Shown here piece by piece: positions 11,046 through 62,347 of a DNA stretch of 64,000 nt. The notes below the pieces were generated by a model. The model ran no database searches and was not told the DNA's origin. It saw nothing but the letters and a program-made list of their open reading frames with translations. The stretch is from contig CAJQUW010004409.1 in the NCBI GenBank assembly GCA_907163375.1, forward strand, positions 1 to 64,000, in the 5' to 3' direction. Origin of the DNA: Prostheceraeus crozeri (lineage: Eukaryota > Platyhelminthes > Polycladida > Euryleptidae). Every line of letters starts with the position of its first letter. The first letter of the stretch is position 1. Both the position numbers and the translations under genes were made by a program.

Positions 11046-11439
11046 TCACTATGCGGTCACTATAATTATCTTCTTCACTATTGGTATTTTGTAGATTACT
11101 GTGAATGATAAAAAATCAGCATTCTTATTATTTGTAGCATTAAAAACGTCGACCGGCAAGGTCCCGGGCTCAGGAACAATACCGACCCGCGGGACATCCC
11201 ATGGTCTGAGGGCCAACCCGCCCAGCATTTAACTCTGTTTCATAGTCTGAGCAATCAAACCATAATACTCTTATCTTATCAACATGACATAACAGAACAA
11301 TCACAGGAACGCTTTTGAGAATTGATTATCTTCTCATTGTACCATTAACATAAATTGATATGGTAATCTACGGGTAAAAGTATTCTTTTACCTTTTTGCT
11401 AGATTCTTGGTGAACACTTTTTCTATACAAGTGATACTT

Positions 11440-14128: not shown

Positions 14129-14129
14129 T

Positions 14130-15845
14130 CTATGGTAAATTTTTATGTCTGGGTGAATAGGAATTAAAAATTTCTAATATGCTATTGAACAAAGACGGTT
14201 CATTGGCAAACGGGCCAAGAATTATGTCATCAATATATCTACGGTATAATTTGGGTTTTATGTCATTAGTCTCTAGTTTTTTCAAAGCCAATTCTTCTAT
14301 GTATTTCATAAAAATAATCGCAAATGGTGGCCCAAAGTGCGAACCCATAGGACAACCTTTCTTTTGAAGATATACAATATTGTTAAATTCAATCTCGTAA
14401 TTAAAAGCTACCAACTTGAGGAATTGTTCTATGCAATTGATGTCTAGGTTGTAGTTGTCAATTAAATGCCAGTTTTCTTTTGCGAAATTAGAAACTATTT
14501 CTATTCCTTCTAAAAGAGGGATAGAAGTATATAAATTTTTTACATCCAATGAGATGAACATTACAGTATTTGTTGTTAAGTTCTTAATCGCTGATAAATT
14601 TTCTATCAAAGCGCTTGTGTTAGGTAAATGTGACGGCACGAACTTTACTAACTTATTAAGTAAATGTCCTACTAACCAATCCACTCTTTCAGTAGGAGTA
14701 TTTGACACCGCGGCTATCGGTCTTAAAGGGTAACCGGACTCGTCCTTATCCTTGTGATCCTTCACTCGAACCTGGAACTTCGCCGGCTTTGCTCCAGTTG
14801 ATATTAATTTTCCTATATCTAAGCGATCGTTATTTTTACAGTAGGTTCTAATCATTTTATTAGCTTGATTTTCTATGCCGTTGTTACGAGATTTTACAAG
14901 TTTTCTATATGTTATATCATCACTTAGTATATCTTCTATGCGATTTACCATGGACTGCTCGTCGGAGATAACCAGGCGATTAGTTTTGTCAGAAGGGATA
15001 ACTACAAGAGCCTTCTCCTTCAAAAATGTTTTAGTTTTTCTAATCATTTGATTATTAAATTTACTTAGCGGCTTACTTTTTTCGTATTTCATTTCTGTAT
15101 TGATTATTTTCATGGCTTCTGTCTCAAACATTTTCAGTTTAAGTTCTACATTTTCATCTAATTTAGGTGGAAATTTAACTGTATTCTTACTGAAGGGAAT
15201 ATTTATCTTATTGTAAGGAACCGAATCTCTATTATCATATAGAGCTTTCCAGCGATAATTTTGACAAGTAGTGAGGATAGACAGTTGATTATTCTTCAAG
15301 AAGTGTTCATTATGAAGGTGGGGCAAGCGAAACCTAGGGCCCCTACTCAGAAAACTGAGAATGTCATTTGGAATGCTGATATCAGTTTCCACACGAATCT
15401 TACTGTCGTACTTATTATTACTGATGAACTGATGTGAGCGATCATAATCATCAAACCAGAATGAATCATGGAAATCAAACATATAGCTTGGTCTATAATT
15501 CACTTCATAAAGTGTTCTGTCAATGATATAATTCTTACCAGTCCAATTACTCAACTTTCGTTGGTGTCGTTCAAATGAGAGTTTCATTTCAGCTTTCACT
15601 GTTCCCTCAATCTTTGTTAGGATAGTACTACACAACTCCGTTGAGCAACTTCTGGTGAAATTGAGGTATTCATAAGAAAACCATCTATTGATATCATCCT
15701 TTTCCATTTTTATTGACGATATCGCGCCTCGCAAAAGCTCCAATTTCAATGATTGGGACTTTCTGTAGATAGCCTTTGTAATACCAATGTCACTTGAAAT
15801 CTTGACTTGGTTATCAATGAAATTGGGAATGACTCCATAATTCAA
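14130..15845 (-). CDS. Penelope-like RT, N-terminal and RT domains
   Basis: Open frame of 571 codons (the nominal first codon is TTG, so the true start is uncertain). The N-terminal region contains FLSRGPRFRLP (about residue 165), then a basic linker and VIPSDKTNR, all typical of PLE proteins. RT blocks follow: FISLDVKNLYTSIP (about 430-443, first catalytic Asp), GCPMGSHFGPPFA (about 497-509), and YRRYIDDI (about 534-541, the paired Asp). The frame then leaves register (SPRHKNLP, stop); the expected continuation around PENGVLNFLDLSI lies in another frame just downstream. PLE RTs are telomerase-related and prime at nicked DNA. Coding density is good, so the element is young or was recently active. 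Confidence 0.93.
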   Translation of the reverse strand: MNYGVIPNFIDNQVKISSDIGITKAIYRKSQSLKLELLRGAISSIKMEKDDINRWFSYEYLNFTRSCSTELCSTILTKIEGTVKAEMKLSFERHQRKLSNWTGKNYIIDRTLYEVNYRPSYMFDFHDSFWFDDYDRSHQFISNNKYDSKIRVETDISIPNDILSFLSRGPRFRLPHLHNEHFLKNNQLSILTTCQNYRWKALYDNRDSVPYNKINIPFSKNTVKFPPKLDENVELKLKMFETEAMKIINTEMKYEKSKPLSKFNNQMIRKTKTFLKEKALVVIPSDKTNRLVISDEQSMVNRIEDILSDDITYRKLVKSRNNGIENQANKMIRTYCKNNDRLDIGKLISTGAKPAKFQVRVKDHKDKDESGYPLRPIAAVSNTPTERVDWLVGHLLNKLVKFVPSHLPNTSALIENLSAIKNLTTNTVMFISLDVKNLYTSIPLLEGIEIVSNFAKENWHLIDNYNLDINCIEQFLKLVAFNYEIEFNNIVYLQKKGCPMGSHFGPPFAIIFMKYIEELALKKLETNDIKPKLYRRYIDDIILGPFANEPSLFNSILEIFNSYSPRHKNLP

Positions 15846-15898
15846 GCATGCATGTAGCAGGTAATCTTGTTTGCGATTGTATTGAACGATTTTACACC

Positions 15899-18800
15899 TG
15901 TCTCGTCAAGTTGTTGAACAATGAAATCCTTGATGGTATCATCACTGGCAGCAGTTTTCGTTATATTATCAGAATGCATGCGATTGAAGAATGTGACTAA
16001 GTCGACATCAGTTGACGTTTTTGCCAAAATATGCGAAGGTCGTAATTTACGCACATCATGGGTAGTCTCTAGTGCAGGGCATCTGTGTCGGTTTATTTCT
16101 CGCCGATAATAGAAACCATAACAATGTGTACATGCAACATACATGTCAATATCATGCGTGATTTCTCTCGATCCTGTCGGTCGCTGTGAGACAATCAATG
16201 TTCCACCAACTTGAAGTATCTTCTTATTATATTGAAAATTTCCCTTGTTTCTGATTAACTGCAATAAATTTATTTTCCTTCTGTCCCCCGTTGACAACTG
16301 CATTAGCTCTTGAACAAAATTTTCTGAATGATGTCTTCTAGTTAAATGGTCCCTCAAACTAGTACTCAAAAACGTGCTTCTGACAATATATGCACACATC
16401 GTGTTTGTCAAATCGTTGTTTGGGGATGTTGTTAGTTCCCGAAACAAAAATTCTCCCATTGACATTTCGACAAGGCGCCTCATCTTCGCTCGAGTCTTCA
16501 GAGCAGCTTGAACAATCACTGATCTGAAAAGATTAATGAAAGTTACGCAAACAGCAGGAAGCCAACATACTCGGGATATGAACGTATTGTATCCACACTG
16601 CAAAATTCGAAAGGCTAAGAAAGAGTTTGATAGCTTGATTAATAGCTTACCAATATTAATATAAAGAAATGCCCATACTATAATAAAACTCTCTAATTCC
16701 CATTTGAAATAATTCGACCTTATAAAGGTATAGATTAGGGTTTTAACCTCAGTATCCCGGGATCGATATTAGGCTTTATTTGCGAGATTTCAGATCTCTG
16801 GATTTATCGTACGGGATCCCAGGATTCATTATTCGGTAATCAAATAGATGATATTGTTGTCTGCCGATCAAGTTACTGCAATAAGTTGTAATTTTCATAT
16901 CATCTTTTATGATAGTAAAATCATGATGGTAGATCTATGTCTGAATTGTTACTATATTTGATTTAAAGCAGCTGAATGATGCTTAGGGTGTAAAATGAAT
17001 ACATTGCTAGAGAGGGCGTGTTTTTCACATCATGAGCATTAAATCGAAAGAGTAAGTAATTCATTGAGGCTCCATTAATAATTCATTCCATAATTGAATT
17101 CTTTCTGGTTAGATCGGTGTCAATATCTGTATTAAGGTATATATTCTTACACCTCATTTTCAATCTCACAACTTACTTCTCCAAGTACGTCATTGTGTCT
17201 CAAAACGAAATCGGCTTGCGGGTATAAGTTACAAATCTCAGACGACATCCCCTCAGGTCGTTCATCGGGTGCGTTTTCCTGGAAATGATAAAAGAAAATA
17301 ATTAATAGTGAAATTTCATATCAGCCATATAGATTAAGACATTTTTTTGTCAACTAATCGGAATTTGTAAACGAACCTTTAATCTAATATTGAATAAATC
17401 AAAAATTGTCAGCCACTCGCCTATCAAATGAAATCCAAGTAAGAGAAATTCTTGCAACAACAACTATAGAAATAAGAGGTGGCGTTAATTGAACAAACAA
17501 TATTACATGTACAATAACTCAAACATTTTTCTTCAAACAAAATTTTGTATTTGCAATAACTGGAGAGAAAACTTCGATGAAAATCAATTTGTGAATAATC
17601 AAAAGAATTGGAAGCGCACTGAAAATAGGTCAAATTGACGACAGACTCCAATTTTATCGATATCATGTCTTTTACATGTCTATGTAACAAAATATATAAT
17701 ATGTGTCTACGACTTAGGCATGTACTCAGAAGACGTTTGAATAGATGTAACAACTCCCTAGAGAGATCCAAAGAGAACACGGAACCGGTCGCGCTCATCC
17801 CAACTTTGTATTGTTTTTCTTTCTAATTATTGGCAATTTTTTGCACTCTTTCTTTATTAGGCCTATAGTAAAGTTGTGAATATTGTATATTTAACAAAAC
17901 CTACCTCTACGTCAGTTTCCGGAATATAATCAGGATCATTTTCGTCTGCTTCAAAAGCAAAGAAATCATCAGGGTCAGCTTCAAGTCGAAAATGTTCATA
18001 CATATTTGACAATGGGTCTTCAGAGTCACTTTCCTGGAAATGATAAAAGCAAAATTAAATAGCAATAGCCATCTGTAGCGAGGCGACATCATCTCATATA
18101 ACAACATTTAAGCATAGGTACTACAATTGCTATCGTATTCTAATTCCCAACAATCGTATCCTAATTTCAGATCAAAGTCACTTAACTGAGAGAGAGAATA
18201 AATTTCGCAATTTACAAAACGAAACGGAAGTCGATGCTTACCAAGTCAACTAAGGTGAAGAATCACCAATGCTCTGTTAGTAGAAAGCTTGGAACATATA
18301 TATCAATACAGGCATAAAGGCTGTTAGAATTAGGTACGGCGATTATAACTTCGAATCAGAGTCATTGAATTGAGAGAGAAGGTTGATAGTTTTCTTTCCA
18401 CTTCACACACCTCAAGAGAGATCTATGCTCAGAGTGAGAATACTATAATGCTGATGCTACTGATGTACCATGTTTCGCAGAAGGTGATCTGTTGTATTAT
18501 TTCTTCTCAAGTCTCAGAACTTACCTGCATCAGTATGTCAGTGTCATTGTCAGATTCCTTTAGCGATTCGTGGTCAGCTTGACATTGAGTAGGCTCATCA
18601 ATTGGATTATCAGGTTTTGGCGATTTGTCCTCAGATTCACTTTCCTAGAAATCATAAAAGCGAAATTAAATAGCTTATAACCAATAGAAACAAACAGGTG
18701 TTATCATATCATGTAATAGTGTTATTTCTTAAGTTGTTTTAGCTGGAGCATTAGCAGAGCAGAGCGTGTTATAAAACAATCGTATTCTAATTTCAAATCA

Positions 18801-26261: not shown

Positions 26262-27507
26262 CATAGTTGACCAGTCGTCGGGAGATCATTTTGATTAATG
26301 AGAGTGTGTTAGAGAAAACTCCCCAAGTTTAGGTCGATGCTTTCTTGAAAGTTAAGTACAAAGTTAAAACAGGTCAGACGGGCCTTCGGCGTCCAGCGCC
26401 TTCGAAACGGTCGATGGTAACAGACGGGATGCAACTGTGTGAAGTATTTATGTGAAGATATGAGTTCTGTTAAGATGTGTGTTGGCGGTTTGCATGATTA
26501 TCGAATTGTGAAGAGAGATTGTAGTCTGGAAGTTCGTGTTTCCTGTTGATCTGTGGTTTAAGCTGTGTTATTGCTTTGGCCTCTGCTATTGTTGTGTCTC
26601 GAGTGTTGTGCAGTTTGCGAATAAGACCGACCTGAAAATTACCGATGCCGCCTATCCCTCCATGCTTATCTTGCAAGTGGTTATAAAGAGCACTACTATT
26701 ACTTTTATTATCAATCGCCTTCCTATGCTCTTGGTGCCTAGTTTTTAGCATGCGGGCAGTTTTCCCTATATAAAATTCTCCGCATTGAACACACGTGTAT
26801 TGATATACGACGTATCTGTCTCGGCACGAGTACTTATTGTTCTTAAAATCACTGCAAATATTACAAGAGCATGATTTTTCTTTCTTATTATTATTAAGGT
26901 AGTTGGCCGATTGATAACCATACTCATTAATCAAACGTACCGGTAAATCATATTTTTTAATAAGTTTATTTATTTTGCGATTACACCGGTCATTAACGTA
27001 GGGCACTTTAAATTGAAAATTATTTTCTTTACTTATGCTATTTCTTTTATTTGATTTTTTTGTCTTAGTACTTATTTCGCGCTCCTTTTCGGTGTATTGA
27101 TTTTGTTCTAGAATTCGGTCAAACTCTGCTAAGTTCTCCTTCCTAATTTCTGGATCATTTGATCGTTGAGATATAGTATGTGCACTACTCTTTATATAAT
27201 TTGATTTAATGTGTCTCGGAAGAAAAGAATCTTTTCTCAAAGCTATACCACAGATCAACAGGAAACACGAACTTCCAGACTACAATCTCTCTTCACAATT
27301 CGATAATCATGCAAACCGCCAACACACATCTTAACAGAACTCATATCTTCACATAAATACTTCACACAGTTGCATCCCGTCTGTTACCATCGACCGTTTC
27401 GAAGGCGCTGGACGCCGAAGGCCCGTCTGACCTGTTTTAACTTTGTACTTAACTTTCAAGAAAGCATCGACCTAAACTTGGGGAGTTTTCTCTAACACAC
27501 TCTCATT
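26262..27507 (-). mobile_element. Truncated Penelope-like element inserted in copy 2
   Basis: Inserted into the duplicated unit. The 13-bp AAATATATTTTTA at 26249-26261 is repeated at 27508-27520, and the unbroken site is preserved in copy 1 at 10288-10300. Inside are an extra ~33-bp leader (26262-26294) and perfect inverted arms of 263 bp (26295-26557 and 27247-27509). Between and into the arms lies a GIY-YIG frame without the RT. Inverted terminal regions plus an asymmetric leader are known for Penelope-like elements. Each arm carries a GGCG stem-loop and GAAACGGTCGA, resembling the terminal motif of the larger element at 13087. Confidence 0.95.
26470..27258 (-). CDS. Penelope-like GIY-YIG endonuclease (RT lost)
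   Basis: 262-codon frame. It reads through a basic, poorly conserved N-terminal part, KVPYVNDRCNRKINKLIKKY (as in PLE linkers), then CSCNIC...C and the GIY-YIG core YVVYQYTCVQCGEFYIGKTA, R-x3-H (RHQEH), GNFQVGLI and ITQLKPQINRK. The endonuclease module is complete and intact, with its Cys-rich zinc site. No RT lies upstream within the element, so it is a 5'-truncated copy. The first and last residues run into the inverted arms. The nominal start near 27258 lies in the 5' arm and is unlikely to be the native start. Confidence 0.88.
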   Translation of the reverse strand: MICGIALRKDSFLPRHIKSNYIKSSAHTISQRSNDPEIRKENLAEFDRILEQNQYTEKEREISTKTKKSNKRNSISKENNFQFKVPYVNDRCNRKINKLIKKYDLPVRLINEYGYQSANYLNNNKKEKSCSCNICSDFKNNKYSCRDRYVVYQYTCVQCGEFYIGKTARMLKTRHQEHRKAIDNKSNSSALYNHLQDKHGGIGGIGNFQVGLIRKLHNTRDTTIAEAKAITQLKPQINRKHELPDYNLSSQFDNHANRQHTS

Positions 27508-27631
27508 AAATATATTTTTAAGTCTAATTTTTCGTCTCATAATTAAGAATGCACCAAAGTTTTATGCCAAAACAAGCATTTTGATCCACTACAATCTATT
27601 TAGTCACAGCAATTGCTCAAAATGACCTCCA

Positions 27632-28255
27632 TCAACTGACACAGAGATCATGTCTTTTCTCGAACGACTGAAAAGCGGAGTCAAGATGCGATGGCAAAAG
27701 TTGATTAAACGCTTCTCGAATCGCACACTTGAGACCCGTGATGCTGGTAGGCGCTTGTTTTTGAATCAAAGATTTATCGTGACTCCAAAAATAAAAGTCC
27801 ATCGGGGTCAAATCTGGACTTCGTGGAGCCCAATGGAATGGGCCATTGTTACCGATCCAGCGGTTACCGAAGTTAGAATAAATGAAAGACTTCGTCGTGT
27901 TCGCCCAATGACATGGTGCACCATCATGCATGAAGATGGTTTTTGAAAAACGTCTCATCCTCTTCATCGCGGGAATGGCAAATTCTTGCAGCATTTCGAG
28001 GTAGTCCCTGGCCTTGACCGTCGATTCAAATAGGAATGGTCCTATCACTCGATAGCGATATATCCCTGCCTAAACCACAAACTGATGGAGATTTTATTGG
28101 AACTTCGTGAATTTCATGAGGATTGTCTTTTCCCCAGATAACGCAGTTATGGCGATTGATGCGGCCATTCAGATGAAATGTCGCCTCGTCGGAAAAAATA
28201 CGTTGTTGAGATAGGCGTCATCCTCCGCTATTCTGGTAAGAAACTCGGTGTGCAT
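27632..28255 (-). pseudogene. mariner/IS630-type transposase remnant (copy 2)
   Basis: Same remnant as in copy 1, but here the third piece is longer (27632-28048, 138 codons from VIGPFLFESTVKARDYLEML) because a G near 27998 is kept. HDGAPCH and SPDLTPMDFYFW are present. Upstream, NRHNCVIWGKDNPHE and SDEATFHLNG are in other frames, so it remains non-functional. Confidence 0.87.
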
Positions 28256-28659
28256 TTCACCGATTGCATCACTATGCGGTCACTATAATTATCTTCTTCA
28301 CTATTGGTATTTTGTAGATTACTGTGAATGATAAAAAATCAGCATTCTTATTATTTGTAGCATTAAAAACGTCGACCGGCAAGGTCCCGGGCTCAGGAAC
28401 AATACCGACCCGCGGGACATCCCATGGTCTGAGGGCCAACCCGCCCAGCATTTAACTCTGTTTCATAGTCTGAGCAATCAAACCATAATACTCTTATCTT
28501 ATCAACATGACATAACAGAACAATCACAGGAACGCTTTTGAGAATTGATTATCTTCTCATTGTACCATTAACATAAATTGATATGGTAATCTACGGGTAA
28601 AAGTATTCTTTTACCTTTTTGCTAGATTCTTGGTGAACACTTTTTCTATACTAGTGATC

Positions 28660-29525
28660 CGTCATCCGCGTAGTCTAGGTCGGTGAAAACTTTCGTAGGA
28701 CTGATCTGAACTCCTCGATGGGCCTGAGGGCGTTATTTAGGATCCATTAGACGGCGTAATCAAAGAGCGTGGGGGATAGTAAGCAGCCCTGTCTGACAGC
28801 GGAACAGATTTCAAATGAGTCCGTCAAAATCTTAGCAAAACGCAATTCGAACCAATTCTCAATTCATAGTTGTCTGAAAGAAAAAATGGACACGTTCTTT
28901 ATCATAACTGTCACTTTGGTCGTCACCACCAAAGTGATTACATAATCATGAAACTTGGTCTGATTGGTCAGCATACCCACAAGATATGACCGTGAAAATA
29001 ACGTTCATCAATAAACGATAAAAACGGAGATCGCGCACAGCGAAACTTAGACACCTGAGACACGATAGGTAGGAGGGAGATATGTCGGTAGTTGATAGGA
29101 TTGTCTTTGAAGCCTTTCTTGTGATGTGCGGACGCACGGGCATGTTTCCAACCCTTTGATGTTTTACCACTGAATTGATTGGTGAAGCAGATGGGTCATG
29201 GATGGTGCGAGCTCACTGGCACATTCATAAAGTACGTGGGCACTGATGCCGTCGGATCCGGTCAACTATGTCACTTTCAATTGTTGCGAGCTGCAGAACG
29301 GTTTGACACGTAATTAATTCAATATGGCATAGTTCGGCGTTAGTCAGTGGTTCAATAGATGGAAGAGCATCAACTGGGGGTCGTTAGTAGCGTTGTTGAC
29401 GAAAAATCCTTTAAGAGGCTCGGCTTTCTCTCGAGATGTCACGTATCCGCGATCAGCGTTTTCAAGCGACCCATTGCTCCGTTTATCGCCCGCAAAACGT
29501 TTTTTTAGATGAGCTCCCATCAAGT
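28660..29525 (-). pseudogene. LINE reverse-transcriptase remnant (copy 2)
   Basis: Counterpart of the copy 1 remnant with the same order of RT blocks and the same frameshift pattern except for small indels. For example, one A is missing near 29135, which moves the VASAHHKKG block into the frame of TRKASKTILSTTD. Dead. Confidence 0.85.
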
Positions 29526-30312
29526 CGTAGGGCGACTGGATGAAAATAGGAACGGCGTGATTCCGAGTAACTGCGTCGAGCGGCTGAGCAGGCCAGTCTG
29601 TAGCACTGCGGATCAGATTAGTCCTTAAAGGAATTGTGTCACAAATTATGATTAGTTACATGTAGAAGTAAAAAGTTGATGAAAGGACACATTGATAAAT
29701 TGTCAGTTAATATTTTCAAATAGAATCTACAACCTTGGAGATTTAAGAAAATATTCTTGAGAAGTCGGTAAAGGAAAACCAAGTCTTAAATTAATGTAGA
29801 CCTATTTCAATGTATAAGAAATGTAATGAATTACGATTTTCAAATAAACATCACGACCTGAGATTGATAGCAAGGTATTGTTCGTCAAGGTAGCAAGTAT
29901 TTCATTTCCAAGTTGATTGATCAATTGAAAATTCAAAGAATTATTCTTTTGTCTCGGTAGGATGTATGACATTTTATTGGTTTTCGAAATAATCGAAAAT
30001 TTTATTGAAACTTAGAAAGTCCTAAAATTGAGTCTCAAGACTTTTCATTTAAAAAACGTCCAGCTGTTTTATATCCTTGATGTACTGGTTAATACTACAG
30101 CAGATGTTGACATCTTTGTTCTGTTGTAGAACTGTTGGATATCAAAGACTCTCGTTCAAGGAACGGCGAATTGACGTATGACGTATCCGGTTCTCCTGTT
30201 GGCTAAAAGCATGAATGTCGCTATCACTGGACAAGTTCCTTTTTTTGGTGAGTTACGAAGGTTATCGTGAATGACTTACCATCAGAATAATATTCTAGAC
30301 TTCATTTAGATA

Positions 30313-31268: not shown

Positions 31269-33577
31269 TTAACCCTCAAACGTTCGGATTCTTTTACCAT
31301 CATATTTCGTTCACCTGTCTACCAGTGTAGACAAGTCATTTAATATGATATCTTAGTGTTTTGAAGCGAACAAAAGCATTGCAAATTGAATCACTACTGT
31401 TTATTATGTTTCATTATCAATATTCATCACTTAGTTTACTTTGTATAATGATTGTATAGCATAGGCCATTAATTAAATACATGAGTAGGCCTATTGGTGA
31501 TAATTGCCAAAAATGAAAACGATCTTTTTATCAGTAATACGACTTTCTTTATCAACAAAATCATGAATCTTTCGTAACATGAACAAATTACTTATAATAA
31601 GATCATCTCAGTAAAGTACTATGAAAAACTGTATAAGGCAAATGTCCAAATGATTTGGTGACATCAAAATATACCGTTCATACATGTATACACTGAAATA
31701 CAACTACATACGACCTTACTAGGGTTGTAGCTACTTTCTTATCAAAAGCGTGATGAATAAACATTGTTTTAAGCCTAATCACAAGTTTTTATGTTCACAG
31801 CAAAAAGCACTTACGCAGGATTGATAATTTCAGGCGCAGTGGAAACAGATAATGTTGTCAACATGGTGGATAGTACACACGTAAATAAAGCAGCGAGCAC
31901 ACCGTCTTCTTGTCGATTTTCTATTGGGCAACTTGACATTTGCGAGGCTTGTTGTCTCGTGGCTGGGAGAGCCTTTGTCTCTCTGGTGGACGTATTCCAA
32001 GTGCTGTAAATGCATGATGGGTTTGCGCATAGATTTGACTGTCATTGAATCTTCGGTTCATATTTGCATCGGCAAGTTGTCGGGCCACAGATTTTATGAA
32101 GGTTGATCGACTTCTCGTGTATCCATTTTCTGACATGATGAGGAAGGAGTTGACGAGGGCTGCGTCTAGCATATTGAAAAAATGTAGCAGCGGATAACGT
32201 CGTGTCTTACGTCGACAAGTGAAATCTTCAACTCGCGCGTCCATTACGTCCACTCCGCCTTTTCCGGAGTTATAATCAAGAATGACAGTCGGCTTCCGAT
32301 CATCACGGGAGGAAATGCTGTTAGACGAATGTTGGGTACTCAAAAGTAGCACATTCTTGTTTCGTTTTGGGGCATATGATGACAAAAGTACTCTATGTTC
32401 ATGATTCCATAAATTTCGTGTCTCGAACTGTGGAATGTTTCTAGTTGTCTTCATAACAGATGGTACTTCACGTCGAGCGGCGATGATGGTACCAGTTATG
32501 GTCAGTCCATTTTTCAACAGTTCTTTAGAAAGATCAAATGAGGTAAAGTACCTGTCAGTTACGATGTTTCGACGTGTCTGATAGTACGGTTCAGCAAGTT
32601 GAAGTACGATGGATTTCGCAAGGCCAACTGCTCTCACTCCTGTTGAGCCAGAATACGGCAAGGGCTTCAATGCGTAGCCATTTTTTGCGTCGCAGATCAG
32701 AAAGTTTTTATCCCATACTTAGCTGGCTTTTGGGGCATATACAATCGTCCGGGTGAATAACCACGGTAGGCATAGAGTTGCTCATCTACCGTAAGAGTTG
32801 CCGAGGGCACGTAGTGTCTTCGAAGATTCTGAGTAAACAAGTCCCAGAATTCCCTCACACCGCAGCAAGCTTGTCAGTGATTTGTCGATCACGCCGTGTT
32901 ACTTTGTTGTCGAAGGTGATGTGGCTGAGAAGTAATTTCAATCTGGTGGAAGAGATCGCGCATCTATAAAATGGGCGACTATCAGTCGAGTCATACAGAG
33001 ACGATATATTAGACATGTTTATCGCGATCAGCTCCGGCACGAATTATAACCCCGATGCCTGCTTTGAATTCCTCGTAGGAAAATTTCTTTTTTTGAAGAG
33101 AACGCATTCTTCGATTGGTGTACCGCAATGATGTGCGGATCATCTGATCGTCGATAAACAACATAAATGACTCAAATTCAGATGCTGGGTTTACAGTAGG
33201 ACCTTCGCGGAAGTTTATCACATTTCTTCCCAGACGTCTCGCAGGAGGAGCATTGAATTTCCAGACGATACCATTCGGAGATACTATGTCTGCTGGATCG
33301 GATATAACACCATCACTGCTGTCGCTTTCTCGAATTATTGGTTGATCAATAGATTCCAAATCAGACTCTTCTTCACTGTTGTTACTGTCATCACTATCGC
33401 CGAATACTTCCCGTCACTGGATTGCTGATACACTTCAGAATCTCCTACTGATGTATCAGACTCCGAGTCCACGGAATTGTCGTCTTCGTCAGAAGTAAGT
33501 GGCTCGGAATCACTGTCCTGTCGAGCTTATCGAAGCTGTTGCACTATCTCTTCAAGTGTTCTCCCAGGTCGCCGCAT
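31269..33577 (-). mobile_element. piggyBac element, decayed
   Basis: TTAA at 31269-31272 followed by CCCTCAAACGTTCGG resembles a piggyBac left end (TTAA target, CCC start). The matching right end was not found beyond 33577, so only the coding region and a candidate left end are supported. The interval between 31273 and 31920 has no other gene. Confidence 0.6.
31830..33577 (-). pseudogene. piggyBac transposase pseudogene
   Basis: Minus strand from ATG at 33577: MRRPGRTLEEIVQQLR, stop, then an acidic stretch (DSDSEPLTSDEDDNSV). Next is MESIDQPI to FSYEEFKAGIGVIIRAG, then YRCAISSTRLKLLLSHITFD, REFWDLFTQNLRRHYVPSAT, VDEQLYAYRG and MPQKPAKYGIKTF in shifted frames. Then 32670-31921: KPLPYSGSTG, IVTDRYFTSFDLSKELL, ILDYNSGKGGVDVMD and TRRYPLLHFFNMLD. 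The catalytic Asp positions (VDEQ, TDRYF, GVDVMD) are all recognisable. A C-terminal Cys/His cluster (CARC...C...H..C..C) survives in another frame at 31830-31920. At least five frameshifts or stops make it dead. Confidence 0.93.
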
Positions 33578-45079: not shown

Positions 45080-47590
45080 ATTGCGATTATACAGCTACAA
45101 TATGCCAAAAAACTCATAAGGTACATGTAGATTCAAGAAAAAATTTTGCTGGTTGGGAAGGTTGTTAGCATTTAGAAAATAACTTTCTAGAAAAATCACT
45201 TTCGATGCTTCAGCTACAATATGCAAAAAATCATAAGTGTGTAGATTCAAGAAAAATTTTGCGAGGACAGGTGTTTGCATTTACGCAAAATAATTTCGAG
45301 TAAATGCATACTTTTCGATGCTTCAGCTACAATATGCAAAAAATCATAAGTGTGTAGATCAAGAAAATGTTGCGAGGACAGGTGTTAGCCATTTACGAAT
45401 AAATAATTTCTAGAAAATCACTTTTCGATGCTTCAGCTTCATATGCAAAAATCATTAGTGTGTAGATTCAAGAAAAATTTTGCGTGGACAGGTTTAGCAT
45501 TTTTAGGAAAGAAGTTCTAGAAAAATCACTTCTTCGATACTTCTGCTACCAATATGCAAAAATCTTAAGTGGTGTAGATTTCAAGAAAAATTTTGCGGAG
45601 GAAGGTGTTAGCATTTACGAAAATAATTTCTAGAAAATCAACTTTTTTCGGGGGGGGGAATGCTTCAGCTACAATATGCAAAAAATCATAAGGGTGTTAG
45701 ATTCAAGATAAATTTTGCCGAGGTCAGGTGTTTGCATTTACGAAAATAATTTCTAGAAATTCACTTTCGATGCTCTGCTACTTTATGCAAAAAATATAAA
45801 GTGTGTTGAATCAGATTCCAAGAAAAATTTTGCGAGTGACAGGTGTTAGCATTTAGGAAAATCATTTCTAGAAAAATCACTTTTCGTGCTTCAGCTACAA
45901 TATGCAAAAAAATCATAAGTGTGTAGATTCAAGAAAAATTTTGCTTTGGAGGACAGGGTTGTTAGCATTTAGGAAAATAATTTTCTAGAAAATCACTTTT
46001 TCGATACTTCAGCTACAATATGCAAAAAATCATAAGTGTGTAGATTCAGAAAATTTGCGTGAGGACAGGTGTTGCATGTACGAAAATAATTTCTAGAAAA
46101 TCACTTTCGATACTTCAGCTACAATATGCAAAAATGATCATAAGTGGTAGATTCAAGATAAAATTGTGCGGAGGACAGGTGTTAGCATTTTACGAAAATA
46201 ATTTCTAGAAATCACGTTTCGATGCTGCAGCTGACAATATGCCAAAAATCATAAGTGTGTAGATTCAAGAAAAATTTTGCGAGACAGGTTGTTAGCATAT
46301 AGGAAAATAATTTCTAGAAAATCACTTTCGATGTTTTCTTCAGCTACAATATGCCAAAAAAAAAAATCATAAGTGTGTAGATTCAAGAAAAATTTTGCGA
46401 GGACAGGTGTTAGCATTACGAAAATAATTTCTAGAAATCACTTTTCGATGACATTCAAGCTACAATATGCTAAAAATCATAAGTGTAATGTAGATTTCAA
46501 GAAAAATTTTGCTGAGGACCAGGGTGTTAGGCATTTAGTGAAATAATTTTCTAGAAAATCACTTTTCTGATGACCTCAGCTACAATATGACAAAAAATCA
46601 TAAAGGTGTAGATTCAAGAAAAATTTTGCTGAGACAGGTGGTTTGCCATTTACGAAAATATTTCTTAGAACATCACTTTTCGATGCTTCAGCTACAATAT
46701 GCAAAAAATATCATATGGGTGTAGATAAAAAGTAAAAATTTGCGAGGACCTGGGTGTGCATTTACAAAAATAATTTCTAGAAAATCACTTTTCGATGCTT
46801 CAGCTACAATATGCAAAAAATATAAGTGTGTAGATTCAAGAAAAATTTTTGCTGAGGGGACAGGTGTTAGCATTTACGAAAATAATTTCTGAAATTCACT
46901 TTTCGATGCTTTCAGTACAATATGCAAAAAATCATAAGATGTGTAGATTCAAGAAAATTTTGCGAGGACAGGTGTTAGCATTACGAATATAATTTTCTAG
47001 AAAATCAATTTTCGAGGCTTCAGCTACAATAATATGCAAAAAATCTAAAGTGTTCCTGTTGATTCAGAAATATTTTGCGTAGGAAGGTGTTTGCATTTAG
47101 GAAAATATTTCTAGAAAATCCACTTTTCGATACTTCAGCTACAAATGCAAAAAATCATTAGTGTGTAGATTCAAGAAAAAATTTGGCGAGGACAGGTGAT
47201 TAGCATTTACGAAATTAATTTCTAGAAATCCCACTTTCGTTGCTTCAGTACAATATGCAAAAAATCATAAAGTGTGTAGATTTAAGAAAAATTTTGCGAG
47301 GGGACAGGTGTTAGCATTTATCGAAATAATTGTAGAAGATCACTTTTCGATGCTTCAGCTACAATATGCAAAAAAATCATATACGTGTAATGTAGATTCA
47401 AGAAAAATTTTGCTGAGGACAGGTGTTTGATTTACGAAAAAATTTCTAGAAAAATCACTTTTCGATGCTTCAGCTACAATATGCAAAAAATCATAAGTGT
47501 GTATGATTTCAAGAAAAATTTTGCGAGGACAGGTGTTAGCATTTAGGAAAATAATTTCTAGAAAATCACTTTTCGATACCTCAGCTACAT
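45080..47590. repeat. Satellite array, ~110-bp unit
   Basis: About 22-23 head-to-tail units with landmarks TTCGATGCTTCAGCTACAAT, ATGCAAAAAATCATAAGTGT, GTAGATTCAAGAAAAATTTT, GCGAGGACAGGTGTTAGCAT and ATTTCTAGAAAATCAC. Anchor CAGCTAC at 45211, 45324 and about 45434 gives 110-113 bp. One- to three-base indels are dense in almost every unit, including G9 near 45650 and A9 near 46357. Apparent short proteins on either strand are by-products. Confidence 0.96.
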
Positions 47591-51024: not shown

Positions 51025-51028
51025 GCGT

Positions 51029-51664
51029 CACACCCGTCGGGAAGACACTTTAAGCGACAAAAAATACGAGCCCCTAACGACCAATCAAATTAGATACTAC
51101 ATGTATGTGCTATTACTGTCTCAAGACCGCAGAAATCGCTACTGAGCTATTCGGCCACAATTTGACCTTGAAGTTTTGGCCCGACTTAGCGTGAGCCAAT
51201 GAGAATCGAGTATTATAAAAATCTTTGTAAATTCAATTTTAAAGGTAAGGGGTCATCCCTATGTTGCAAAAATGGTTTGTGATCATCATCCAGTTATATA
51301 AAGGTTGTATTACATTAAATACGTTTCAATGACATAGATATCGGACGATTTAATGACATAGATATTAGATGAAATATATGCTGCGATATGGCTGACTGGA
51401 TATATTTGAATTATGTTAAGAGATACAAAACATTAATGGATAATAGTATTTTGAGAGTATATTCTTATCAATACACATATAGAAATATGTTTCAATAACA
51501 TAATGATCGAACATGGACACTTCGAGGCATACAAAAGGTAAGTAAAGACATGAAATACTTATAAATGTCGACTATTATAGCGTATAATTGCAGTTAACCG
51601 GTGTTCACCATAACTGGGATTAGCGAGAGATATTTTTCGCTTCTTCCCACAATAACATGAAGTC
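51029..51664. repeat. Left TIR of RAG1-like element
   Basis: About 636 bp, inverted relative to 53985-54332 and 56543-56833. Its inner end overlaps the last codons of the transposase (stop at 51620-51622). It preserves the unoccupied piggyBac target (TACATTAAATACG near 51311-51323). Confidence 0.93.
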
Positions 51665-53599
51665 AGAATGAACAGCCTCTGACGCTTGTTCACTGAATTT
51701 GCCGAGACTCACTTTGTGGAATTTGCAAAATTGTACCACGTGGTTGAGGATGACGTGAACAGATGTTGTTACAGTGACATCGAGAGACAGGTATGCATCT
51801 TTAAAATTGGCAATTTTTTGGATGTAATCGTCGGCTAATGTACATCCTAAACCGCTTTGCGAACATCATTGAATCGACGAAATGCCTCAACAAATTTCAT
51901 AAGAGAAAATTCACCTTCTTGTATGACAATAGATTCCAAAACATCGATACAGTTCAGCAATTGTTTGCTCATGTTTCCATTAAATTCTCCAGAATGAAGA
52001 CATGGACGCGAGATTCCGACTTTTCGCAACCATTTCTTAGAAATGTCATCAGCTTTAGGAGAAGATCTCTACATCTCTTTGAATAATTTGTTTGTTATTC
52101 GAAGGAGCAAATGAAGTTCGGGGGGAGGAATACAGCGGATGAATATATCTTCATCTGCCCCGCTCAATAACGGCTCATGAACACAGTTCTTGTAATTTTT
52201 TGGCAAGTGTTCTACTTGATTTAGATTTTGATTCATTATACTCTCGCGACAGCTTGCGAACAGAACCTAAACTTCGAACAACATGATCACGCTTCCAGAT
52301 TTGTTAAAATCTTGCTTAGGCGATTCACACCACAAACACGGATAGGTGCTCCCATGAGCCTGGATGCCAGCTATGATGTTACCGAGTTTCAAATCAACGG
52401 CATGGGTAAAGTTAAAATTCAAATGCAAAATGTTCAGGAGATCAAGAATGGTTTTTACATTTTTGTACGTCTCCTTTACACCAGGAGCAATAGCAATAAT
52501 AATTATCTTCTTGACTCCTGTGTAGCGCAGTTGTCCGTTGAGAGGGGCCTTGTCAAAATTATGTTCTTGGAATTCGTTATCGTTGAAAATGCTCAAACAC
52601 ACTTTGAAAAAACCGCCTCCACCATCTAAGCCAATTTTGATGTTAGCAGACATTTTCATTAAAGTTCCGTGAGGCGCATATGTACTCAATGATACCTTTC
52701 AGATCGCTACAGTATACAATTGGTACGTGCTCATCAGCGCCTTCAAAATCAACATAGGTCATATTGAAGAAATTATCGAAGAGCTGATCACGTTTTCTCA
52801 ATGCAGAATCGGTGTTACTTTCAATAGATTTTCTTCCTAAAACGGAGCGCATAAAGGGCAAAACATTATGAACAATTTTTGTGTTGGAACAACCAAGTGA
52901 TAGTTGAAAAGAGCTGATTTGCGAGGATGTGAAAAACGATGTGCAACCACGAGTAGCACCCACTTGAACATGCATTAACTTTGATCCTCTGGTAGACAGA
53001 AGTATGTTTTCCTTTTCGACACTTTCTACTTTGTGTCGGAGGACATCAGAAGCCAAAATATCTTTGGTTCTCTCATCAGTGTCGTTACATATGTTTGTCA
53101 AGTTTTTCCTTAGTGATGTCACATTACAACGATGAGATAAACCCCTGCCAATTGGGAACTTGCACGAATTGCATAACTTTACGATGCCTTGATTTGAGTC
53201 GAAGGAATCATTCGAAGAAGTTACCGGACGTCCTCGCTTTCTTTTTTCACACAATATTCCAGGAGTACGAGCTACTTTACAAATTTCACAGCTACATATC
53301 CGGTGGGGTACATATCTTGTAGATGTAGAAATGTTTGGTGATATCGACTGGAAGTCATACAAACTCGGTAAAACATCAGTAGTCTTCTTCCCATTGCTTA
53401 TGTCTAATAGATCGGATCGACATTTCGAGCAAATGGCCGCCGGATAACATGCATCATGTGGATCAAAATTTTCGATGTAGTAAAGTCGAATTCGCTGAAT
53501 AATTATGATAGATATAGGATTGTTGGCTTTTTGAAAGCATATTATACATACTTTACGTCGATTCTCATCATGAGAAGAAGCATGCTGACTATGAGACAT
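51620..53599 (-). CDS. RAG1-like transposase (Chapaev / N-RAG-TP group)
   Basis: Minus-strand gene from ATG at 53599, about 650 residues in four frame segments. The N-terminal part has CIIC (about residues 18-21), CSKC (57-60), PHRICSCEIC then ARTPG and KRKRGRP, and CNSCKFPIGRGLSHRC. This spacing recalls the RAG1 N-terminal zinc-binding region. The catalytic part has GLDGGGGFFKV (first D, codon at 52624-52626 approx.), HAVDLKLGNII (second D near 52393-52395) and YPCLWCE, whose first C is 19 residues after the second D, as C727 follows D708 in RAG1. Then come PLLSGADEDIF and PPP/ELHLLL, and HVILNH (H-x4-H, as H937/H942) followed by GKFSEQASEAVH with the expected third acid, and a stop at 51620. 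Frameshifts near 52640, 52120 (a run of C) and 51850 interrupt it; all key residues survive. RAG1 numbering is from memory. Confidence 0.85.
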
Positions 53600-54332
53600 C
53601 ACACGAAGCTATTTATTTTTGGAACTCACTGTTATTCTATGTTAACATATCTGTGAGTCAATCAATATCATTCTTACTTACTTGGATTCAAATTAAATAT
53701 TCAAAGTCAATATCACGTAAATTTGATTTATCATAGCTAGTTCTTTTCATCATATCAATTCAACTGAATCAATCAGCTTTACATAGACATCTTGCACATG
53801 CTTAATGATTTCATCATATGATTTTGCATGTTGAAATCAAAGACAAATTTACATTTAGAAGTAGGGTGAATTTTCAAATTAATCTTATTGGTTTTTAATC
53901 GTATTCTTGAAATTTACTATTTGAAAAAGGTTATTAAGACTCAATAATAATACCATAACCAATATAACGAAACTGCGCATCTCGAGACTTCCATGTTATT
54001 GTGGAAAGAAGCGGAAAAATATCTCTCGCTAATCCCAGTTATGGTGAACACCTGTTAACTGCAGTCGACATTTATAAGTATTTCATGTCTTTACTTACCT
54101 TTTGTATGCCTCGAAGTGTCCATGTTCGATCATTATGTTATTGAAACATATTTCTATATGTGTACTGATAAGAATATACTCTCAAAATACTATTATCCAT
54201 TAATGTTTTGTATCTCTTAACATAATTCAAATATATCCAGTCAGCCATATCGCAGCATATATTTCATCTAATATCTATGTCATTAAATCGTCCGATATCT
54301 ATGTCATTGAAACGTACTACTTCTACTGCGTA

Positions 54333-56542
54333 CCCTTCTACTGCGCTGCTAAAAAAATCACACATTCTGCGCACATAGAGACAAAATGTCTCGGGTATGT
54401 TTATTGGAAAAAATGAGTACATGAAAGGCCATCTTGGCTAGATAAGTGTAAATATAACACGACACATTACCGAGCGGCATGAATGATAAAGGATTACTCC
54501 GGTAAGTCGTGTGAAACACAAATAGATCCTTTGTTTGAATGGTCATTGCAAACAAATTTGTGACACATCACACAAAATCCGCGAACTTGATTTCGTTTCT
54601 CGCACATATGGCATCGTCCTCGTTCAGGTCGATCTCCACGCGCGGCAGGTACCTCGTCATTTGCCTGGGGAGACTTCACGCCACATAAGTCCATCGCAAT
54701 TCTCACGGAAGAGTGAAGTTTCACCTCCACGGAACGTCGCCAGATGTGAGGCTTCATGAGGGCTTCTGCCAGATCTTTGAGAAAAAGTCGACGTTTAGCA
54801 AGATTTCTCCGGTTCCAATCGGGATTGTTCGTCATCCATACCACAAAACTGTTCCAACATGCCACATTCAACATGTTCGTGAAAAGTTTTGTCGGGTATT
54901 TGCGTGTTTGACGATTGCAGCTGTAGGTGTTGGTAGTCATATCTATGGTATCCACAGCACCTTTCTTTGAATTGTAATCCAAGATCAATTTTGGTTTCCG
55001 CTCCTCTCCATCGGAAATGATAGCGTCGTGGTGAAGTGAGGAAAGTAAAATAACTGCTTTCCTCTTCTTTGGCACGTAAGAGCACAGTGTAAGCTTTTCA
55101 GTGAAGCCAAATGTCGAGGAATGAACTTCTCGCTGAAAGGTTCCTTGGAAACTTGGTGGAATCTCCGGCTTGTTACTGCGCAAAGTTCCATCAAGGTGAG
55201 TCTCTTTTCCAATAAATTGTTTCGCAAGAGGTACACTCGTAAAAAAATTGTCGGTCGTTATATTTCGCCTGACTGATAGATAGGGCGGCATAAGTCCATT
55301 ACAACTCGGCTAGCTTGGCCAACTTCTGGCAGATTTCCTTCTTTTCTGAGATAAATTTGGGCATTGTAAAAGTAGCAGGTGTCCGAATCCGCCAGAACCC
55401 AAATCTTTATGCCGTACCGGTTTGGCTTTGATGGCATAAAAACGCGGAACGGGCAACGGCCGCGAAATCCGACAAGCAAGTCATCAAGCGTCCCATGCGC
55501 ACCAAGAGAATAACACATTCTGCATTGCTGAGGAAACATTTCCCATATTTCACGAAATGGCACTTAGTTTGTCCGTTGCCGTCGATCCTCCGAGTATTTT
55601 TGTCGTCAAAACGCAAAAACTTCAAAATAACTTTGAACCTGTTGAGAGACATTGTGGCGCGTAGTTTTTGGACGACCATCGTCTTCTGACCAGAGCTCTT
55701 CATAGCTTTCGTTTCCAGATTTGTGGATTCCAATATAAATTAGACAACCAATGAAAGCCTTGAATTCTTCGATGTCTAAGTCCCTCCATCTTCTTGCATA
55801 CCAACTGTTCCTCATCAGAATCTTCAATAAACTGATTAGCATGTCTATTCGTGTAATCTATCACCTTGTTGAGCAATTCATCTTGAACGAAAAGCTGGAA
55901 AGTTTCTCTAATGGAGTCGACTCGCGTAATTGACGTCGGACCACCCGCTGTGCGAAGCACGTTTTCTCGACGAAAGCGTCCACGTTGACTTGGAGGATCG
56001 CGATTCCATAAGAAACCATTCCTTCCTCGAAGACGCCCTTGTCGTGATAAAGCCTCCTCGGCATCGTCGTCGCTCTCACTGTCTTCTTCATTACTGGATT
56101 CCTCTGTGGCGTGTTCTACCTGATCTTCTTCATCGCTACTCTCATCCATTTCTTCTTCTCTCTCTTCTTGAATCAGATGTTCTACCAGTTGAAATACTGT
56201 GGGTGCAGCTTGTCTTCGGGGTCTTGATGATGAAGCCATTGCAACTACAATGCTCGCGCTAGCAACAGAAAATGACACGACGCAAGACACAAGGCTGTGC
56301 GCTAAATTGTCGCCTGCGTGAGTTACATTCCTGCAGTGTGATGTGATTGACTGTCCATGTCTTTGTTCAAGCGTGCGCACAGCGAATCAGTGCACTTAGC
56401 GAATTTTTCTTTTGTCAGCTTGTGACCAACATTTAGAAAGGAAAAGTCACCAAAAATGAAATAATTTGAGAAAGTTTTTAAAAAGTTATGAACAAAATAT
56501 GAAAACCCGAGACATTTTGTCTCTATGTGCGCAGTAGAAGGG
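54333..56542 (-). mobile_element. piggyBac element nested in the right TIR
   Basis: Ends CCCTTCTACTGCGC at 54333 and its reverse complement finishing at 56542. The subterminal repeat TGCGCACATAGAGACAAAAT appears near both ends; the left copy is displaced by about 21 bp. The right flank is TTAA (56543-56546). The left flank is not TTAA: it carries an extra CTACTTCTACTGCGTA. The intact target is visible in the left TIR, so the insertion point can be read exactly. Confidence 0.95.
54494..56251 (-). pseudogene. piggyBac transposase, frameshifted
   Basis: ATG near 56239 (MASSSRPRRQAAP). An acidic region with EREEEMDESSDEEDQ is followed by FVQDELLNKVIDYTNRHANQ. In successive frames come DIEEFKAFIGCLIYIGIHKS, MSLNRFKVILKFLRFDD, GTLDDLLVGFRGRC and PSKPNRYGIKIWVLADSDT. 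Finally 55291-54494: ITTDNFFTSVPLAKQF, LILDYNSKKGAVDTID, TRKYPTKLFTNMLNVACWNS and the C-terminal cross-brace finger CHMCEKRNQVRGFCVMCHKF...H. The second and third catalytic Asp positions (TDNFF, AVDTID) are clear; the first is weaker (TLDD instead of VDE). Four or so frameshifts separate the blocks. Confidence 0.93.
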
Positions 56543-56837
56543 TTAATGTAATACAACCTTTATATAACTGGATGATGATCACAAACCATTTTTGCAACAT
56601 AGGGATGACCCCTTACCCTTAAAATTTGAATTTACAAAGATTTTTATAATACTCGATTCTCATTGGCTCACGCTAAGTCGGGCCAAAACTTCAAGGTCAA
56701 ATTGTGGCCGAATAGCTCAGTAGCGATTTCTGCGGTCTTGAGACAGTAATAGCACATACATGTAGTATCTAATTTGATTGGTCGTTAGGGGCTCGTATTT
56801 TTTGTCGCTTAAAGTGTCTTCCCGACGGGTGTGGCGT

Positions 56838-59186: not shown

Positions 59187-62100
59187 ACGTGTGTGAAGTT
59201 AGCGGAACCATTTTTTATTATAGCTTAATTCTATTCGAAACAGCTGCTAGTTTGTCAATTTCAGTCTCCTGATTACGAATCTGAGCTCAGATTTCACAAA
59301 TTCACAGTCGCTTCTGAGAAATTCAAGTTTAAAGATAAAAGTGGTCCCGCTGTGAAGTTAGCGGAACCATCCAGCAGAACCAATTGCTGAGTCTCGCTGA
59401 TTGACGCAGTAAATCAATTTCTTTTGGTCACTACCCGATCAATTTTGTTGTGCTGATCACGAATATGTGCCTCATCTTTCAAAACAGTGCAGATTTCACC
59501 CGGAAATCTGAATTTCACTTTTTCTGCAAGCTGATTGTGAAGTTAGCGGAACCATTTTTCAATACAAAGAATTTCTCAGCGAAATCCATCCTCTCCTACT
59601 AATTTGAAGCTCCTAATCACAAATCTGTAATCAGATTTGCAAAACTCGCCCGCATTGCAAAGATATTCCTCTATCTGGGTCCGCTGTGAAGTGCCCGGAA
59701 CCACCTACTGGCATTAAAATTTCAAATTCTAATTTTTGCACAGAATCACTGCAATAGACATACCAAGAGAATGGAATTGCTTCACTGATCACGGTTTGCC
59801 GTCCGATTTCACGGGAGAATAAGTACTTGCCGAGAAAAATGGATTTTACGGTTATCATGGACTTTTCTGCAAGCTGATTGTGAAGTTAGCGGAACCATTT
59901 TTCAATACAAAGAATTTCTCAGCGAAATCCATCCTCTCCTACTAATTTGAAGCTCCTAATCACAAATCTGTAATCAGATTTGCAAAACTCGCCCGCATTG
60001 TAAAGATATTCCTCTATCTGGGTCCGCTGTGAAGTGCCCGGAACCACCTACTGGCATTAAAATTTCAAATTCTAATTTTTGCACAGAATCACTGCAATAG
60101 ACATACCAAGAGAATGGAATTGCTTCACTGATCACGGTTTGCCGTCCGATTTCACGGGAGAATAAGTACTTGCCGAGAAAAATGGATTTTACGGTTATCA
60201 TGGACTTTTCTGCAAGCTGATTGTGAAGTTAGCGGAACCATTTTTTCAATACAAGAATTTCTCAGCGAAATCCATCCTCTCCTACTAATTTGAAGCTCCT
60301 AATCACAAATCTGTAATCAGATTTGCAAAACTCGCCCGCATTGCAAAGATATTCCTCTATCTGGGTCCGCTGTGAAGTGCCCGGAACCACCTACTGGCAT
60401 TAAAATTTCAAATTCTAATTTTTGCACAGAATCACTGTAATAGACATACCAAGAGAATGGAATTGCTTCACTGATCACGGTTTGCCGTCCGATTTCACGG
60501 GAGAATAAGTACTTGCCGAGAAAAATGGATTTACAGTTTTCAAGGATTTCATCGGAATCTCAGAAAAAATCCAACCTCTCCAGATCAGCCGAACCATCAT
60601 TTATTACAGCACAATTCTATTGCACCATCACAATGTGTTAATTACCTCTTGTGCGCTTTCCTTCTCGGTGCATGCTGTTGTGCCTCTGAAGTCATTAGAT
60701 GTTTGAAGAAGACGGTTTACAAGTGTTCGTCCATCGGAACGCTGGTATCGCTAATTTCTCCATGTTTGTTGTTTGTAATTACGAGGTTAGTTAAAGAAAA
60801 ACTTTCATGTTGTCCTAAAAAGGATTCAGAATCGCTTCATTGTTGAAAGATTGCAATGCTTTGTAGCTATTGAGCATATTAATTCATTTCGTATCAAAAA
60901 AACATAAAGTCTTAGTAGGATAAATTTTTCGGTTCCCATGCTGTCAAATCTCTGCAGCGGATTGGTAATTCATTAGTTGCATAATATCCTGAGGTGATAA
61001 AAGATAAGAACTTGCTAATAAGTGCGATTCTTGCATAATGAAAAAATCACGTGTGTGAAGTTGGCGCAACCACTCAGCGCGACCATTTTTGTTTTTACTG
61101 CGCCACTCCCAAAAATCACATAAACCACACAATTCGAGGTCGCTGATTATGTGCCACTACTCGGTTTCACGAAATTCAGCCTCCTTTGGCCAGAAAACGC
61201 ATTTCAAATTGGTTGCGCTGTGAAGTTGGCGCAACCAATTTTTCTGACTTTCATAAATTTAGCGCATCAAGCAACAAAATCATAACAAACGATGAAATAT
61301 CCATGCCTAATTATGTGCCACGCAAAAAATTACTAAAAATAATCGATCTTCATGGAAAAATCAAGTTTCAAAATTTTATTTTGAACCGTGATCAGTGAAG
61401 CAATTCCATTCTTTGGTATGTCTATTGCAGTGATTCTGTGCAAAAATTAGAATTTGAAATTTTAATGCCAGTAGGTGGTTCCGGGCACTTCAAGCGGACC
61501 CAGATAGAGGAATATCTTTGCAATGCTGGCGAGTTTTGCAAATCTGATTACAGATTTGTGATTAGGAGCTTCAAATTAGTAGGAGAGGATGGATTTCGCT
61601 GAGAAATTCTTTGTATTGAAAAATGGTTCCGCTAACTTCACAATCAGCTTGCAGAAAAGTCCATGATAACCGTAAAATCCATTTTTCTCGGCAAGTACTT
61701 ATTCTCCCGTGAAATCGGACGGCAAACCGTGATCAGTGAAGCAATTCCATTCTCTTGGTATGTCTATTGCAGTGATTCTGTGCAAAAAATTAGAATTTGA
61801 AATTATAATGCCAGTAGGTGGTTCCGGGCACTTCACAGCGGTCCCAGATAGAGGAATATCTTTGCAATGCGGGCGAGTTTTGCAAATCTGATTACAGATT
61901 TGTGATTAGGAGCTTCAAATTAGTAGGAGAGGATGGATTTCGCTGAGAAATTCTTTGTATTGAAAAATGGTTCCGCTAACTTCACAATCAGCTTGCAGAA
62001 AAAGTGAAATTCAGATTTCCGGGTGAAATCTGCACTGTTTTGAAAGATGAGGCACATATTCGTGATCAGCACAACAAAATTGATCGGGTAGTGACCAAAA

Positions 62101-62347
62101 GAAATTGATTTACTGCGTCAATCAGCGAGACTCAGCAATTGGTTCTGCTGGATGGTTCCGCTAACTTCACAGCGGGACCACTTTTATCTTTAAACTTGAA
62201 TTTCTCAGAAGCGACTGTGAATTTGTGAAATCTGAGCTCAGATTCGTAATCAGGAGACTGAAATTGACAAACTAGCAGCTGTTTCGAATAGAATTAAGCT
62301 ATAATAAAAAATGGTTCCGCTGAGTGGTTCCGCTAACTTCACACACG
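59187..62347. mobile_element. Foldback element built of 343-bp tandem units
   Basis: Left arm about 59187-60545 and right arm about 61390-62347 are inverted. The ends ACGTGTGTGAAG and CTTCACACACGT are flanked on both sides by CACAAAAAG (59178-59186 and 62348-62356), a perfect 9-bp target duplication. Each arm has a unique outer part (~335 bp) followed by tandem units of ~343 bp: three in the left arm (starting near 59524, 59868 and 60211) and two in the right. The centre (60546-61389) carries related motifs with GTTGGCGCAACCA. There is no transposase. Long arms with unequal tandem units recall FB/TU/Galileo-type foldback elements, and a 9-bp duplication is also usual for Mutator-like elements. 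Confidence 0.92.
59524..60545. repeat. 343-bp tandem units, left arm
   Basis: Three units, the third truncated at about 60545. Each contains one TGTGAAGTTAGCGGAACCA and one TGTGAAGTGCCCGGAACCAC, plus AATCACAAATCTGTAATCAG and CCGTCCGATTTCACGGGAG. The units are nearly identical. Identical 75-codon minus-strand frames in two of them are by-products. Confidence 0.95.

Follow-up and report, generated by a model that had tools for sequence, protein, structure and literature searches.

A decayed, probably Chapaev-type transposon with RAG1-like zinc and catalytic motifs in the polyclad flatworm Prostheceraeus crozeri

The 64,000-nucleotide stretch of the Prostheceraeus crozeri genome analysed here, referred to below as the window (contig CAJQUW010004409.1 of assembly GCA_907163375.1, positions 1 to 64,000, forward strand), carries a transposon copy of 5,805 bp at 51029-56833. 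It comprises long terminal inverted repeats (TIRs), a broken transposase gene on the minus strand and a piggyBac-type element nested in one of the repeats. Its ends, target-site duplication and protein motifs led us to conclude, at a probability of about 0.84, that it is a decayed copy of a Chapaev-type transposon without RAG2; Chapaev, a known kind of animal transposon in the CMC group, was reportedly described by Kapitonov and Jurka in 2007.

The element starts with CACACCCGTCGGG and ends with CCCGACGGGTGTG, thus the CAC/GTG termini are located at 51029 and 56833, and it is flanked by two copies of GCGT, the left one at 51025-51028 and the right one at 56834-56837. Both the CAC ends and the 4-bp GCGT duplication had been noticed in the first-pass annotation of this DNA, and both were found in the sequence as described. 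The five-base flanks read TGCGT and GCGTA, so the repeat is only 4 bp long, a length that is read from the flanks of one single copy of the element. Repeat comparison placed the left TIR at 51029-51664 on the plus strand, while the right TIR, on the minus strand, is split into two pieces by an inserted piggyBac copy. The outer piece with the GTG end (56543-56833) matches the left arm in 289 of 291 alignment columns, and the inner piece (53986-54316) is identical to it in 322 of 347 columns, including a 254-bp stretch at 100%. The TIR length of about 636 bp claimed earlier is therefore correct if the piggyBac insertion is discounted. Once gene, TIRs and piggyBac are subtracted, about 390 bp (53600-53985) of the element is left, which gives no space for a RAG2-like gene (the small open reading frames (ORFs) there were not profile-searched), in agreement with the previous description of the element as lacking RAG2.

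The nested piggyBac-type transposon, a feature missing from the first-pass annotation, was identified by its matching ends (CCCTTCTACTGCGC) and by Pfam at 54333-56542 on the minus strand. It is about 2.2 kb long and contains a transposase ORF (54497-55309) that matched Pfam DDE_Tnp_1_7 with E 2.2e-23. A TTAA flank was found on its right side only, and the 16 bp to its left (54317-54332) resemble its own end sequence, so that the left junction looks as if it had been rearranged. Another piggyBac-type transposase remnant (DDE_Tnp_1_7, E 3.8e-26) is located elsewhere in the window, at 31927-32718 on the minus strand. As for the end of the left TIR (51029-51070), ACAAAAAAT lies there 21 bp downstream of CACACCC and agrees in 7 of 9 positions with ACAAAAACC, which we take to be the nonamer of the recombination signal sequence (RSS). 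An RSS-like reading of the TIR end was rejected, since a match at least as good at a distance of 12 ± 1 or 23 ± 2 bp turned up in 1748 of 20000 sequences made by shuffling the first 60 bases.

The transposase gene extends from 53599 to 51620 on the minus strand and runs at its 3′ end into the left TIR. It begins with the ATG at 53599 and stays open for 318 codons, after which the frame shifts near 52650; two in-frame TAG codons follow (first bases 52269 and 52071), and a second frame change lies near 51850. Two stops and two frame changes make this copy an inactive pseudogene. For the analyses a read-through of 660 residues was used, in which an X was placed at each of the two stops and the two junctions. 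The first-pass annotation had proposed one gene combining two regions, and a single minus-strand gene is indeed present, but it is broken and its catalytic motifs can be seen together only in the read-through.

The motifs of the catalytic half, all encoded on the minus strand, were compared with the catalytic and zinc-binding residues of RAG1, the protein that carries out antibody gene rearrangement. The candidate for the first catalytic Asp is residue 326 in KIGLDGGGG (52624-52626), which was chosen by motif order and lies outside the local alignment with RAG1, while the candidate for the second, residue 403 (52393-52395), aligned to D708. From D403 the alignment runs ungapped to the putative zinc-binding CxxC, CLWC (52327-52338, residues 422/425), which falls onto C727/C730; the distance of 19 between D403 and the first Cys equals that between D708 and C727. 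The pair LH (52111-52116, residues 496-497), which had not been recorded before, aligned to H795 in the local alignment. A weak segment alignment put HVILNH (51740-51757), the putative zinc-binding HxxxxH with residues 616/621, on H937/H942 and, with one gap, E642 of SEQASE (51677-51694) on E962, making E642 the candidate third acid, with E638 as its alternative. The order D, D, CxxC, LH, HxxxxH, E is thus the order of D600, D708, C727/C730, H795, H937/H942 and E962 in RAG1. All the residues listed in the earlier description (D, a second D with CxxC 19 residues on, HxxxxH and SEQASE) are present, but in the read-through only and in no single open frame. The composite motif D-D-CxxC-LH-HxxxH/HxxxxH-E occurred in 36 of 20000 protein shuffles, a frequency that applies to loose spacings chosen after the sequence was seen.

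Local alignment of the read-through with the mouse RAG1 core reached a score of 73, the shuffled sequences giving a mean of 35.4 (standard deviation 4.7, z ~8, 0 of 1000 shuffles equal), and D403/D708, CLWC/C727-C730 and LH/H795 fell in one collinear aligned stretch. Most of this score was supplied by the stretch from D to CxxC, which scored 55 by itself (z 7.3, 0/1000 shuffles). As a control, the 57 ORFs of at least 100 amino acids in the window were aligned with the RAG1 core and with the RAG1 N-terminal domain, and the frame containing both Asp residues was the best of these 114 tests with z 5.9 against the core. The runners-up were an ORF inside the nested piggyBac (z 4.3) and the ORF at 7131-7631 (z 3.8), so that z values up to ~4 have to be considered as background in this control. 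When the frame with both Asp residues was searched against PDB sequences (E up to 10), the sole match was RAG1 in 3jbw, presumably the zebrafish protein, with E 2 at the D-CxxC stretch. Similarly, its sole Pfam match was RAG1 PF12940 with E values of 0.047-0.17 depending on piece length; the best score was 12.2 bits, under the curated cut-off of 25, and the match was retained by a 268-residue piece with E 0.17. Among the four pieces of the protein used in the first Pfam scan, RAG1 was found only with the one that included both Asp residues. As a yardstick, the PDB search was carried out with the mouse RAG1 core itself, which retrieved lancelet RAG1L (6b40) with E 8e-74 and the Transib transposase 6pqn, which we take to be HzTransib, with E 0.0015. 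Since the RAG1 core finds Transib at a mere E 0.0015, weak single-sequence scores are expected for a relative beyond Transib. On these sequence comparisons the catalytic half is a distant relative of the RAG1 core.

The N-terminal half contains a zinc-like region (53225-53554, minus strand), which was considered from its motifs and alignment as a candidate for the Chapa domain or the central non-core domain of RAG1. Its boxes are a CxxC at residues 18-21, a second CxxC at 57-60, and PHRICSCEIC...KRKRGRP at 98-125; the CIIC, CSKC and PHRICSCEIC...KR reported earlier thus lie in one open frame, the 318-codon stretch with which the gene starts. Two zinc ions are bound by the central non-core domain of RAG1 (residues 87-217), in which the Cys pairs C110/C113, C175/C178 and C210/C213 were mutated (PMC3124419). 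The second and third RAG1 boxes, that is, the pairs 175/178 and 210/213, which the boxes of the element resemble, were aligned in order, the alignment closing with GL---KRKR..P versus GILCEKRKRGRP, while the first box remained outside of it. This alignment had z 2.6, its score being equalled in 33 of 2000 shuffles; z was 2.2 when Cys and His were kept fixed (84/2000 reached the score), and the third box alone gave z 3.7 (32/5000). An additional CxxC...HxC knuckle was noticed by eye at residues 143-158 (53126-53173, minus strand), and no full RING pattern was visible by eye in the N-terminal half. The lack of a full RING distinguishes the element from RAG1, although some RAG1L proteins are also without RING (PMC7204232). 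The N-terminal boxes likely form a Chapa domain, as their motifs and order suggest. The proposal that both halves of the RAG1 plan occur in this protein was thus borne out for the catalytic half (z ~8), but the N-terminal half is suggestive (z 2.6).

The family to which the element belongs was examined by means of published hallmarks. For Chapaev, PMC4079192 names target-site duplications of 3 to 4 bp, invariable 5′-CAC/GTG-3′ termini and the motifs C(2)C, LH and H(4)H. The element has the CAC...GTG termini and the 4-bp duplication, and its read-through has all three motifs together with candidate DDE acids. A candidate Chapa module precedes the core, with two boxes collinear to RAG1 but modest alignment scores. 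It differs from the Chapaev elements described in that the copy is broken and contains a nested piggyBac. The Chapaev affinity suggested in the first-pass annotation therefore agrees with the ends, the duplication and the three motifs. Chapaev3 was rejected as a candidate, since it makes a 3-bp TWA duplication between A and T (PMC4079192), while that of the element is GCGT.

Several results weigh against the Chapaev placement or the RAG1 kinship on which it partly draws. The segment around residues 521-560 alone was not significant (its score was reached in 107/1000 shuffles), nor was the segment at the C-terminus that contains HxxxxH and E (224/1000 as good). In the ORF control the N-terminal ORF reached z 2.3, and two unrelated ORFs were higher (2.9 and 2.5). 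Profile search of the protein in Pfam gave nothing above the curated threshold: with the 660-residue read-through no RAG1 was found, only the unrelated HOCHOB (E 0.11), and with a 383-residue piece no family; neither Pfam nor PDB yielded RAG1 for the N-terminal domain, and the longer catalytic pieces had only unrelated weak matches in PDB. AlphaFold models from single sequences had a mean predicted local distance difference test (pLDDT) value of 33.6 for the N-terminal piece and 35.4 for the catalytic piece, which was folded without its last ~75 residues, as these lie in another frame; at such values the models do not tell whether the motif residues come together. With an E limit of 10, Foldseek gave 514 matches for the catalytic model, none of them at or below 0.001, and no RAG or transposase chain was among the best 50 of the 514 matches; at this pLDDT the outcome is uninformative either way. 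The absence of a significant Pfam or PDB match would be expected if the protein were an unrelated transposase whose motifs arose by chance. This is extremely improbable, since none of 1000 shuffles attained the score against the RAG1 core, the ordered motifs appeared in just 36 of 20000, and the transposon anatomy, with its matching ends and duplication, is independent of the protein.

Two RAG1-like halves in a single protein, the CAC ends and the local similarity to the RAG1 core would also fit a RAG-like (RAGL/ProtoRAG, TransibSU) or Transib transposon, that is, close kin of the direct ancestor of RAG1. With the RAG1/RAG1L group the element shares the order of the catalytic and zinc residues and the exact D708-to-C727 spacing, and CAC ends are found in Transib as well. 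Nevertheless, its duplication is 4 bp, while 5-bp duplications are stated for Transib and RAG in PMC8355894, and there is no space in it for a RAG2-like gene. Moreover, its similarity is far under that of lancelet RAG1L, for which the mouse RAG1 core gave E 8e-74 compared with E 2 for the match of the element's frame to RAG1, thus a true RAG1L is very unlikely, and so is this origin as a whole. CxxC and HxxH-type motifs are common to Transib and the element (PMC12730594), whereas the core is the only domain of Transib (PMC4411706). N-RAG-TP of Aplysia is similar, by its description, in having RAG1-N-like zinc boxes within a transposon, but in the element a catalytic core follows these boxes. 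Considering the 4-bp duplication, the missing space for RAG2 and the PF12940 score under the cut-off, the designation "RAG1-like transposon" in the first-pass annotation was overstated, and the Chapaev-type assignment was preferred.

Another member of the CMC/CMCT assemblage (EnSpm/CACTA, Mirage, Plavaka, Lanisha) or a related unclassified lineage could have the same ends and motifs, as PMC12730594 ascribes C(2)C and H(3-4)H to the CMCT group throughout, and CA..TG ends to most of it. The same source gives 3-bp duplications for EnSpm, in contrast to the 4 bp of the element. In addition, the Chapa domain is limited, among known transposable elements, to the Transib and Chapaev kinds listed in PMC4411706, an argument that is here based more on motifs than on statistics, and such an affiliation is unlikely. 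Relatives of the element were also looked for in other sequence sets. Protein-pattern scans gave 8 and 2 pattern matches in viral contigs and 23 in prokaryote genomes, with 0 confirmed in each case; tblastn found two unrelated weak matches in plasmids and none in phages, and an exact search for the 32-base TIR end in viral contigs had no match.

If the Chapaev-type assignment is right, the element derives from an autonomous cut-and-paste DNA transposon. While the family was active, its single protein would have attached to the long TIRs, and the RNase-H-like DDE core of this protein, presumably braced by zinc on CxxC and HxxxxH, would have cut beside the CAC ends. Joining of these ends to staggered target DNA would then leave the 4-bp duplication. 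The N-terminal zinc boxes, which are probably Chapa and the counterpart of the central non-core zinc domain of RAG1, would probably have aided DNA binding or nuclear targeting, and no RAG2 partner would have been encoded. The gene acquired its stops and frame changes afterwards, and the piggyBac inserted into the right repeat.

The window contains several other repeats. A 2.8-kb segment is present in two direct copies (10287-13086 and 27508-30312), which are 99.5% identical and ~17 kb apart, and holds a mariner-like ORF, named so by eye, the tested piece of which had no Pfam match. The minus-strand region 13369-15905 encodes a reverse transcriptase (RVT_1, E 3e-10) and, after it, a domain resembling GIY-YIG (E 0.0026). 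Another GIY-YIG-like piece (E 0.0021) is found at 26476-27279, also on the minus strand, and both GIY-YIG scores are under the Pfam GIY-YIG cut-off; by their look we take the two regions to be Penelope-like retroelements. Further, an inverted pair of ~940 bp (59201-60139 and 61384-62321, 99.3% identical) overlaps a 343-bp tandem repeat, and long minisatellite-like arrays with units of 188 to 209 bp and 112 bp occupy 1-5068 and 45092-47589.

As to what the element means for RAG1, the Chapa domain, a truncated N-terminal part of RAG1, takes its name from Chapaev (Kapitonov and Koonin 2015, PMC4411706). In that article, a RING finger follows Chapa in two Chapaev subgroups, Chapa also occurs in Chapaev3, and Chapa, RING and core are stated to have been fused anciently. 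Protostome RAG1L proteins with the three N-terminal zinc motifs are described in PMC7204232. With Chapa in Chapaev and protostome RAG1L both published, the presence of both RAG1 halves in one transposase was already known. The usefulness of the element for understanding how RAG1 was assembled, as put forward in the first-pass annotation, is not new, since the ancient fusion of Chapa to the core is in print (PMC4411706). Most likely, the element adds a member to a known kind and provides no new link in RAG evolution. It is also conceivable, but quite improbable, that it represents a Chapaev subgroup, in a host not reported before, with three RAG1-type N-terminal boxes and a short CCHC knuckle in the place of the RING of other Chapaevs, an intermediate between RING-bearing Chapaevs and the RING-less TransibSU/RAG1L. 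By itself the element leaves the picture of RAG1 origin unchanged, and it is one more copy in a family that has been used in PMC4411706 to argue for an old transposon fusion of the RAG1 zinc module and core. Its value would lie in anchoring a consensus of the family in the host, and in showing again how easily searches with one sequence overlook RAG1 kinship, as even the RAG1 core detects Transib with just E 0.0015.

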